Positions 42,419 through 46,050 of a DNA stretch of 46,050 bases are shown in pieces. Numbering within the stretch: the stretch's first letter is position 1; each line of letters begins with the position of its first letter. The stretch covers positions 1 to 46,050 of the forward strand of contig JALFXV010000013.1 in NCBI GenBank assembly GCA_022786545.1, read 5' to 3'. The position numbers and the translations under genes were made by a program. Origin of the DNA: Selenomonadaceae bacterium. Its GTDB lineage: Bacteria > Bacillota > Negativicutes > Selenomonadales > Selenomonadaceae. The notes beneath the pieces are model-generated. The model made no database searches and was not told the DNA's origin. It saw only the letters and a list, made by a program, of their open reading frames with translations.

Positions 42419-43843
<1,425 letters not shown>

Positions 43844-43846
43844 TCA

Positions 43847-44275
43847 ATGGCTACTATCAAGCTAGAGATTGTATCTCCTGACAAGGTTGTTTACACAGCT
43901 GATATAAATATGCTGATTGTCCGTTCTACGGCTGGCGAGCTGGGCATCCTGCCTCATCATGCGCCGCTGGTAACAGGCCTGGTGCCTCATGCCATGCGTG
44001 TCAAGATTGGCGGTACCGAGTCCCTGATTGCCGTAGCTGGCGGCTTTATGGAGGTGCAGCCGGAGAAGATTACCGTGCTGGCTTCTGCTGCCGAGCTGCC
44101 TGTGGAGATTGACGTGCTGAGGGCCCAGAAGGCTTATGACCGTGCCAAGAAGCGCCTGGAGGAGTTCAAGAACTGTGCTTCCTCTGCTGAGTGCCCTGTG
44201 GACGGCAAGCGGGCCGAGGCTGCCCTGCACCGCGCTATGGCGCGTTTGAATGCTTCCGGCAACCCGGTTGCATAA
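43847..44275 (+). CDS. atpC: F-type ATP synthase subunit epsilon
   Basis: A 142-residue regulatory subunit: an N-terminal beta sandwich (IKLEIVSPDKVVYTADINMLIVRSTAGELGILPHHAPLV) and a C-terminal helical hairpin (AQKAYDRAKKRLEEF, AEAALHRAMARLNA). A short insert with two Cys (NCASSAEC) lies at the turn between the two helices. It begins three bases after atpD and is the last gene before the operon terminator. Confidence 0.96.
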   Translation: MATIKLEIVSPDKVVYTADINMLIVRSTAGELGILPHHAPLVTGLVPHAMRVKIGGTESLIAVAGGFMEVQPEKITVLASAAELPVEIDVLRAQKAYDRAKKRLEEFKNCASSAECPVDGKRAEAALHRAMARLNASGNPVA

Positions 44276-44338
44276 GGATACAGGCATATCGCAAGCATAT
44301 AGATTTCCTGTTTAAGGCATTTATATAGTATAGCAATT

Positions 44339-44382
44339 ATCGCAGTATGGAAGCTATGGGCTTCTGTACTGCGATTTTTTTT
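44339..44382 (+). terminator. Rho-independent terminator of the atp operon
   Basis: A 16-bp stem, ATCGCAGTATGGAAGC (44339-44354) with 44360-44375 including two T-G pairs, encloses a five-base loop and runs straight into eight T residues (44375-44382). It is the strongest terminator in the window. Confidence 0.95.
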
Positions 44383-44400
44383 GCAGGGGCTATAAAAAAC

Positions 44401-44429
44401 TTTGCATATATCGAAACAGATAGTAAAAT
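44401..44429 (+). promoter_or_regulatory. Candidate promoter for the DUF4869/ATPase pair
   Basis: -35 TTTGCA (44401-44406), a 17-bp spacer, and -10 TAAAAT (44424-44429). It lies just after the atp terminator and 56 bases before the first gene of the pair. The -35 is weak. Confidence 0.5.
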
Positions 44430-44485
44430 ATAAGGAAGCAAAGTTAAAAGTGATTTGAGTTTTCAGGCAGTATGAGGTGATGAAT

Positions 44486-44926
44486 ATGCTCAAGGTGTAC
44501 ATGGGCGGACTTGAGAATGAAATATACAATCCTGATATGTATTTTAACAATCAATATGAGGATGAGTGGATTACTGATGAATTGGCAAAAGCCATGATTG
44601 CGGATGTTGATAAATCTGTCGTCATCAGCAGTCATGTTATAGACAGCCCGGTGCTTGGGGCGATTACGCCCAAGGAATTATCCGGCGGGGTGAAAACCCT
44701 GATGCTTCTGGCATTTGATACCAGCGGAAATATTTTTAATGGCTCCGCCTGTGGGGATAATTGCGCCAAATGGATATTAAAGCTGGCAGAAGATAAGGAT
44801 ATAACCATTACCCTGCATCATGGGATGCGTTTTGGGGCAGGTCCCTTTGAGATTGAAATTCTTAATAATGGCAAGATAGTGCGCAATCGTCATGAGTGGC
44901 TGGAGAATATTTATAATTTTATCTGA
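44486..44926 (+). CDS. DUF4869 family protein
   Basis: A 146-residue soluble protein of the DUF4869 family, recognised by MLKVYMGG, the EDEWITDELAKAMIADVDKS block, VIDSPVLGAITPKELSGGVKTLML, and NGSACGDNCAKWILKLAEDKDITITLHH. A Cys pair (CGDNC) and a Trp are conserved-looking. No catalytic signature is known to me. ATG 44486 follows GAGGTG by six bases and starts at the family's usual MLKVY; longer in-frame starts at 44477/44480 are less likely. It is followed after 40 bp by a P-loop ATPase that, from memory, accompanies DUF4869 genes in other Firmicutes, so the two probably form a functional unit. The base composition looks more AT-rich than the atp genes, suggesting an accessory origin. Confidence 0.82.
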   Translation: MLKVYMGGLENEIYNPDMYFNNQYEDEWITDELAKAMIADVDKSVVISSHVIDSPVLGAITPKELSGGVKTLMLLAFDTSGNIFNGSACGDNCAKWILKLAEDKDITITLHHGMRFGAGPFEIEILNNGKIVRNRHEWLENIYNFI

Positions 44927-44966
44927 TTTGCTGGTGAACATTGCGTGGTCTATATAGGGGAAGAAA

Positions 44967-45929
44967 ATGAAAGGTCAATACAGGGTTACTATTTTCAACA
45001 AAAGATTGCGGTTTGAATTTGACATACGGCGGAATATCACTGTGGTCAGGGGAGATAGTGCCACCGGCAAAACCACTTTGATAGGAATGTTGTCAAATTA
45101 TGAGAAAAATGGCGTTGCCAGCGGCATAACTGTGAATTGTGCAAAAAAATGCGTTGTGCTGGATAGTATTCGCTGGCAGGTCAATTTGCAGTCGATTAGT
45201 GATAGTATAGTCTTTATAGATGAGGGAGAGAAATTTATTGGCAGTGATGAGTTTGCTGCCGCTGTTGGGGCATCGGATAATTATTTTGTCATTATTACCA
45301 GATACAATCTGCCTAACCTGCCATACAGTGTCCAGGAAATTTATGGCATCAGAATTTCACAGAAATATGCCGGCTTCAAGCAGATTTATAATGAATTTTA
45401 TCCGTTGTATGAGGCGGATAAACAGGAGTATAGTTCAGGTTCCGCTGTCATGGTAATCGAAGATAGCAAATCGGGCTTTGAGTTTTTTGAGGCGGTGTAT
45501 GGAAATAAATATCAGTGCGTCTCGGCTCATGGAAAATCTAACGTGTACAGGTTATTGCTGGCTTCTAGTGAGAAGGTCTGCATTGTGGTTGCTGATGGCG
45601 CAGCTTTTGGGGCGGAAATAGAAAGGATTTATCATTTGATTGAGGATGGCAGGAAGATATACCTGTTTTTACCGGAATCGTTTGAATGGCTGCTGTTAAA
45701 GGCACATTTTTCTGAAGGGAATGATGTTGCCAAGGTGCTGGAAGCCCCCGAGAACTACATTGATAGCAGGGCATACATCAGCTGGGAGCGATTTTTTACA
45801 GATTTTTTGATTCAGAAGACTGCTGGCACTTATTGGCAATATAGCAAGCAGCATATAAATCCTGTATACTTGCATGAGAAAAATTTGCCGAAAATGCTCA
45901 CTATAATTAAAAATTTCAGTTTGTCGTAG
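44967..45929 (+). CDS. P-loop ATPase with possible TOPRIM-like C-terminal half
   Basis: A 320-residue protein. Residues 1-150 form a P-loop domain: Walker A GDSATGKTT at 29-37 and Walker B SIVFIDEG at 80-87. No ABC signature is evident. After a linker, residues about 160-300 contain VMVIEDSKSGFEFFEAV with Glu165, and KVCIVVADGAAFGAEIERI with Asp210. Their order and setting after hydrophobic strands recall the Glu and DxDxxG motifs of TOPRIM domains, with the second Asp replaced by Ala. A P-loop plus TOPRIM arrangement would resemble OLD-family nucleases, but the match is by eye only. Later blocks PESFEWLLLKAHF and YISWERFFTDFLIQKTAGTYWQYSK look family-specific. It is paired with the DUF4869 gene. 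Function is unknown; database names linking such proteins to translation initiation would be unsupported by what is seen. Confidence 0.7.
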   Translation: MKGQYRVTIFNKRLRFEFDIRRNITVVRGDSATGKTTLIGMLSNYEKNGVASGITVNCAKKCVVLDSIRWQVNLQSISDSIVFIDEGEKFIGSDEFAAAVGASDNYFVIITRYNLPNLPYSVQEIYGIRISQKYAGFKQIYNEFYPLYEADKQEYSSGSAVMVIEDSKSGFEFFEAVYGNKYQCVSAHGKSNVYRLLLASSEKVCIVVADGAAFGAEIERIYHLIEDGRKIYLFLPESFEWLLLKAHFSEGNDVAKVLEAPENYIDSRAYISWERFFTDFLIQKTAGTYWQYSKQHINPVYLHEKNLPKMLTIIKNFSLS

Positions 45930-46050
45930 TGCTTGTTTGTAACTACGAGCATATACTGACTGAAATAGTTTGGTAGTTCGTGGACTCTGTTCAGACTAAA
46001 AATGGGCTGAGCGGGACAGCTACCCATAGAAAACACGCTCGCGCTCCTAG

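Follow-up and report, generated by a model that had tools for sequence, protein, structure and literature searches.

OLD proteins, Gabija and PARIS are the closest described systems to the two-gene module considered here. The OLD active site comprises E400, D455 and D457 for metal A, E404, T506 and E508 for metal B, and in addition K562; the counterparts of the T/S-x-E residues in a second OLD protein are S478 and E480. The signature motif of OLD ATPases is degenerate (PMC7049728, PMC6755086). In Gabija, ATP is reported to hold the TOPRIM domain of GajA closed, according to work cited in PMC12796447, and in PARIS the ATPase sequesters the TOPRIM effector, which is thereby kept inactive (PMC12409363). 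Both are precedents for the principle of the lock that we propose below. Our preferred reading, to which we give about an even chance of being right, is a toxin-antitoxin-like module of the OLD/PARIS kind, in which a single ABC ATPase site would be split over two proteins and the smaller one, a DUF4869 protein, would restrain the TOPRIM domain of the larger one, here called the effector.

The window, that is the whole stretch of 46,050 nt that was analysed, is one entire contig (G000:C18) of a 2.6 Mb genome, and the view stops at position 46050. The module and its borders are as follows.

44339-44375, forward strand: intrinsic terminator of the atp operon (17-pair stem, then a T run), the upstream edge of the module
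44486-44926, forward strand: DUF4869 gene (146 aa; PF16163 at 5.2e-56; AlphaFold pLDDT 96; structure matches are nearly all ABC ATPases)
44967-45929, forward strand: effector gene (320 aa; P-loop domain 1-141 fused to a predicted TOPRIM domain 156-318; AlphaFold pLDDT 89)
44381-45910, no strand: block present here and missing at the orthologous site of the relative G007 (by blastn, 43001-44380 and 45911-46050 are contiguous in L141; junction alignment)
45911-46050, no strand: dispersed repeat bordering the module, outside it (dozens of matches in each of the genomes G000, G007 and G017)

The coordinates of both open reading frames and the motif positions in the effector (GDSATGKT 29-36, SIVFIDEG 80-87, IEDSKSG 164-170, VVADGAAFG 207-215) given in an earlier note on this DNA are correct, as is its placing of the module downstream of the atp terminator, which we located at 44339-44375, and its remark that the module is AT-richer than its neighbours (GC 41.5% against 53.6% in the rest of the window). 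The note's proposal of a separate promoter did not survive, since the candidate at 44401-44429, with a 9/12 consensus match, is no better than chance, six promoter-like sites being found where 5.0 are expected. The two genes lie on the same strand with a gap of 40 nt, a plausible ribosome-binding site precedes each of them, and the DUF4869 frame has an in-frame GTG at 44477. Measured against the G017 copy, dN/dS is about 0.11 (effector) and about 0.04 (DUF4869), and these low values indicate that purifying selection maintains both. Moreover, a copy of the module with 94% identity is present in an uncultured Veillonellaceae genome. An Rfam match to mir-458 in the window was discarded, as its score is under the cut-off for that family and it is meaningless here.

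Profile searches of the effector against Pfam, NCBIfam, PHROGs and PADLOC returned weak P-loop matches only and place it in no family, and a sequence search of the PDB gave nothing useful for either protein. The AlphaFold model of the effector (mean pLDDT 89) has two domains. The first of them, residues 1-141, resembles ABC ATPases by VIA (Z 7.4-9.2), the matches including the ABC-F protein VgaA-LC (9.2), MalK (8.2) and UvrA (8.2). The motifs of the two domains, with their conservation in 70 homologues, are these.

45051-45074, forward strand: Walker A, GDSATGKT, residues 29-36 (G29, S31, G34, K35 and T36 invariant, 70/70)
45204-45227, forward strand: Walker B, SIVFIDEG, residues 80-87 (E86 70/70, D85 69/70)
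45459-45476, forward strand: TOPRIM motif 1, E165 to G170 (E165 70/70; the +4 acid position is Ser or Ala in 69/70)
45594-45611, forward strand: TOPRIM motif 2, D210-G-A-A-F-G215 (D210 70/70; the second Asp of DxD is replaced by A212 in 68/70)
45678-45686, forward strand: S238-F-E240, counterpart of the OLD T/S-x-E metal-B motif (S238, F239 and E240 70/70 each)
45846-45848, forward strand: K294, candidate counterpart of the OLD catalytic lysine K562 (70/70; 54 residues after the Glu, as from E508 to K562)

In the model the link from the preceding strand (61-64) to the Walker B strand (80-84) is only about 15 residues long, so that the effector appears to be without a signature subdomain; residues 1-141 make up the entire ATPase domain and leave no room for an inserted dimerisation arm.

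The top two Foldseek matches of the effector are the OLD nuclease 6p74 (E 2.9e-4) and GajA, and VIA aligns residues 156-318 with the C-terminal part of the B. pseudomallei OLD protein 6nk8 (Z 7.5, 137 residues aligned). The C-terminal half is therefore modelled as a TOPRIM domain of the OLD type, in agreement with the earlier note, which had recognised the TOPRIM motifs in their order, had singled out Glu165 and Asp210 for a check of conservation (both turn out invariant) and had noticed that one Asp is lost (position 212). Of the seven OLD catalytic positions, five show no variation among the 70 homologues, namely E165, D210, S238, E240 and the candidate K294. Neither metal set is complete: of the metal A residues E165 and D210 are kept and the second Asp is replaced by Ala212, and of the metal B residues S238 and E240 are kept and the +4 acid is replaced at position 169. 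With two of seven catalytic positions lost, the domain may be inactive or may perform another chemistry. The loss of the acid at 169 and of the second Asp at 212 would also suit a regulatory or housekeeping module, ATP-dependent and with a nuclease-dead TOPRIM domain, acting for example in DNA or RNA metabolism, for which the archaeal OLD protein Cran1, not a defence protein, is a precedent; against this, the remaining catalytic positions are invariant and show no drift. Its further evidence comes from the distribution of the module, where we return to it.

The partner, called uncharacterised in the earlier note, is indeed so: the protein matches PF16163 with 188.4 bits (cut-off 28.9), Pfam assigns DUF4869 no function, and a literature search found no paper naming it. 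Nearly every entry in its Foldseek list is an ABC ATPase, with PtuA and CydDC at the top, but the E-values are weak (0.05 at best), and VIA matches the protein to RecN, SMC and Rad50 at Z of only 4-5. The most conserved stretch, LSGGVKTL, forms the start of helix 67-77. Two motifs stand out among 69 homologues.

44678-44689, forward strand: LSGG signature-like motif, residues 65-68 (S66, G67 and G68 69/69, L65 67/69; paired with the ABC signature by hhalign)
44750-44764, forward strand: CGDNC, residues 89-93, at the position of the ABC D-loop (C89, G90, N92 and C93 69/69, D91 64/69)

After LSGGVKTL follow, in this order, the strand IFN in the place of Walker B, CGDNC in the place of the D-loop, at which helix 91-103 begins in the model, and LRH in the place of the H-loop. 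Walker A is absent, as there is no GxxxxGK, and so is Walker B, the corresponding place reading IFNAS; because both are missing, we call DUF4869 a half and not an ABC ATPase. When the DUF4869 profile was aligned by hhalign with 23 ABC domains encoded in the same genome, a score of 32.7 was reached, with LSGG on the signature, His112 on the H-loop and the last strands on the ABC C-terminal hairpin; the medians for shuffled profiles were 13-14, and one of 60 shuffled DUF4869 profiles reached 31.9. In a comparison with AAA_21 ATPases the motif again fell on their signature, at a low score. Judged by motifs and model, DUF4869 resembles that half of an ABC ATPase which bears the signature, and since Walker A and Walker B are found in one protein and LSGG in the other, the effector and DUF4869 appear to lack complementary parts of one such enzyme. 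No DNA-binding domain was recognised in DUF4869.

A three-gene sister class, class B, was found as weak matches in the searches of 299 Lachnospiraceae genomes. In it a DUF4869-like gene (motif LS[ST]GCKT) is accompanied by two others, one for a P-loop protein that lacks TOPRIM (about 142 codons) and one for TOPRIM by itself (about 230 codons); two gene orders occur, and by profile comparison the three correspond to the parts of the two-gene form at 2e-15 (DUF4869-like), 4e-17 (P-loop) and 2e-7 (TOPRIM). One class B protein gives a weak P-loop match to the AriA profile (0.0026). The P-loop protein reads VIDNAD, with Asn where the catalytic Glu would stand, and this replacement suggests that ATP is bound rather than turned over. 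The TOPRIM gene occurs in 26 of the 299 genomes, and each of the 14 copies with nearly full length and no stops adjoins a DUF4869-like match, as read from the search tables. Several class B TOPRIM genes were at one point taken as broken, an assignment that was rejected when tblastn found most of them full length. Strictly conserved cysteines close to the C-terminus of the class B TOPRIM proteins (C181, C186 and C187 of L259), absent from the fused effector, possibly form a metal site, and a divergent three-gene form with a TOPRIM protein of 343 aa is found at L263 2438-4382.

The H-loop and D-loop residues of DUF4869 are not conserved in class B, and the DUF4869-like proteins of this class have no match to ABC_tran (12.6). 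This last result, together with the weak structure scores of DUF4869 and the shuffled profile that nearly equals the real one, would be expected if DUF4869 were an antitoxin or regulator without ABC ancestry, its LSGG a chance match and no ATP site shared between the proteins. We regard such an origin as quite improbable, however, as two independent methods point to the same fold, the order and spacing of the motifs are right, the alignment to AAA_21 also sets the motif on the signature (at a low score), and what is missing from each protein is complementary to what is missing from the other.

The pairing of the two genes is close to complete. Relatives of the effector are encoded on 476 stretches of a species-level genome collection, and among the best 80 of these 476, which come mainly from Lachnospiraceae, Oscillospiraceae and Treponema, DUF4869 lies directly upstream of the effector at 79 of 80 loci, the exception being at a contig edge; the gap is at most 20 nt in 62 of the 68 cases measured, and seven pairs overlap. 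In the 299 Lachnospiraceae genomes every near-full-length fused effector has its DUF4869 (35/35), and so has every intact effector in the family of the window (15/15), where the gene order is sometimes reversed and the pair is still on one strand. Thus no intact effector without DUF4869 was found in these two family surveys. The reverse situation is frequent. No effector is near 11 of 59 near-full-length DUF4869 matches in Lachnospiraceae, six of which were counted as true class A orphans, the rest being contig edges, remnants or class B; another 11 intact DUF4869 genes in Lachnospiraceae adjoin a broken effector; and in the family of the window eight intact DUF4869 genes have their effector broken (five) or absent (three). 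In total, the two surveys hold 25 intact DUF4869 genes with a broken or absent effector and none of the reverse, shared ancestry being ignored in this count, and by a hand estimate that takes loss as proportional to gene length and likewise ignores shared ancestry, such a split has a chance of about 1 in 12,000. One contrary case, L092, comes from another collection and concerns one species, in which a truncated DUF4869 gene adjoins an intact effector. The co-occurrence that the earlier note had proposed to measure therefore stands in one direction, intact effectors being always accompanied in the two surveys, and fails in the other, as DUF4869 also stands alone. Among the effector remnants away from contig edges, 17 of 19 lack one or more of E165, D210, S238 and E240, and the Walker A lysine is gone in five. 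Lone DUF4869 genes with a CCDKC variant and no adjoining effector are seen at L052 414-920 (G000:C11) and L051 1453-1959 (G007:C38), where the neighbours encode an AAA_14-like ATPase, a DNA helicase-like protein and a restriction-type nuclease-like protein. Divergent two-gene forms occur at L269 3148-4705, with the gene order reversed, and at L270 57-1663, whose effector has a TEGxGSD close to the classical TOPRIM motif 1.

The observed pattern of loss would result if the TOPRIM domain were costly in the absence of DUF4869, and a toxic effector restrained by DUF4869 fits the one-sided loss best; this decay argument is limited to the two-gene form. The opposite sign of control also has to be weighed, namely an obligate two-subunit effector in which DUF4869 supplies the missing part of the ATPase and activates the TOPRIM nuclease, the whole still being an OLD-like defence enzyme. 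Pairing, the proposed split ABC site and the sister class fit an activator equally well, and an ordinary ABC signature and D-loop do complete the ATP site of the partner. Lone effectors would then be inert and should be tolerated, yet none is found intact in the surveys and lone DUF4869 genes are common, for which reason we consider an activator unlikely, though less so than the other rival readings.

The module is a patchy accessory module. Its effector gene is present in 20 of 189 genomes of the window's family, and 51 of the 299 Lachnospiraceae genomes are positive. The block missing in G007 is about 1.53 kb long and holds all of the DUF4869 gene and the effector gene short of its last few codons; gain here and loss there cannot be told apart from this comparison, and inspection of the junction by eye showed neither a terminal repeat nor a target duplication at the ends. 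The contig end at 46050 is explained by the dispersed repeat, which is at least 140 bp long, has copies at many contig ends, and outside G000, G007 and G017 matches once in G014 and nowhere in the 12 remaining genomes of the genus. For the two-gene form, no conserved third gene or fixed neighbourhood was found in the best 80 of the 476 stretches, the commonest neighbour cluster occurring at 10 of 80 loci. Genomes may carry several copies and remnants with varied neighbours. In one Blautia genome (L132 7548-15636, G190:C8), two complete modules lie about 6 kb apart together with DUF4869 fragments, an arrangement that suggests repeated capture or duplication. The pair is also seen on the conjugative plasmid pRUMAL02 of R. 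albus (L247 11556-12981), with IS66 genes downstream. Three plasmids carry relatives, and so do five 'Bacteriophage sp.' records, unannotated and derived from human faeces, and a search of IMG/VR gave no effector relative; the records and plasmids are too few to call the module phage-borne, and this label was rejected.

Among the 123 nearest neighbours there are few defence matches (two type I methylases, two Fic proteins and others), a count made without a background set. That no defence-island signal emerges from these neighbours, again read without such a set, agrees with the housekeeping module introduced above, but the patchy distribution, the site that is occupied here and empty in G007, and the several copies and remnants per genome amid varied neighbours do not, and in sum a housekeeping function seems improbable to us.

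Returning to the restrained effector as the preferred reading, the effector would supply the cis parts, Walker A and Walker B, together with the TOPRIM nuclease-like domain, and DUF4869 the trans parts, the LSGG signature and the D-loop-like segment. We infer that the two proteins form a physical complex, binding head to head with ATP sandwiched between the P-loop and LSGG, and in this ATP-bound state the TOPRIM domain would be held inactive. The trigger that frees the TOPRIM domain would be a loss of ATP, or else a signal of infection or stress that removes DUF4869; acting as a nuclease, the freed domain would then cut nucleic acid, and the resulting toxicity would stop growth. A role in defence against phages would be plausible. 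More tentatively, with somewhat less than an even chance, we propose that the module represents a new OLD-like class, in which a composite ATP site of two half-ABC proteins would serve as an ATP-operated lock on TOPRIM, existing in two- and three-gene forms and widespread in gut Clostridia, Negativicutes and Treponema. Should the site indeed be split, this would provide a working model for DUF4869, which has no known function, a new architecture of the OLD/Gabija/PARIS kind and a lock of very small size that senses ATP and acts on a TOPRIM domain.

Compared with known systems, the module has the plan of class 1 and class 2 OLD proteins (PMC7049728, PMC6755086), an ABC-type ATPase domain and then TOPRIM, and the active-site Glu, the first Asp, S/T-x-E and the Lys (K294 as candidate) stand at matching places. 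Unlike OLD proteins, the effector is shorter, with 320 aa, has no arm or dimerisation insert and no signature subdomain, has lost the second Asp and the +4 acid, and has an obligate small partner, DUF4869. Type II toxin-antitoxin pairs share with it the small upstream gene, the tight order, the lone 'antitoxin' genes and the loss of effector parts, but differ in that the effector here is an ATPase-TOPRIM protein and DUF4869 has no recognised DNA-binding domain. As for DUF4869 (PF16163) itself, the first protein is a clear member, which is here given a partner and a proposed function. The likeness to Gabija, which the earlier note had cited as an example of an OLD-type layout, holds as far as an ATPase-TOPRIM protein encoded with a partner is concerned, as in GajA/GajB, GajA being also the second Foldseek match. 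It ends at the partner, which is DUF4869 and no UvrD/PcrA/Rep-like helicase; the effector is without the inserted dimerisation domain, and it does not match the PADLOC profile of GajA. In PARIS (class 4 OLD; PMC12409363), the ABC ATPase AriA and the TOPRIM protein AriB are separate or fused, and the TOPRIM protein of class B is likewise separate. The window proteins have no match to the AriA and AriB profiles beyond weak P-loop matches, and, unlike in PARIS, the ATPase itself is apparently split into a Walker half and a signature half. The module resembles OLD, Gabija and PARIS in plan and is a member of none of them, and its closer parallel is with split PARIS/OLD rather than with Gabija.
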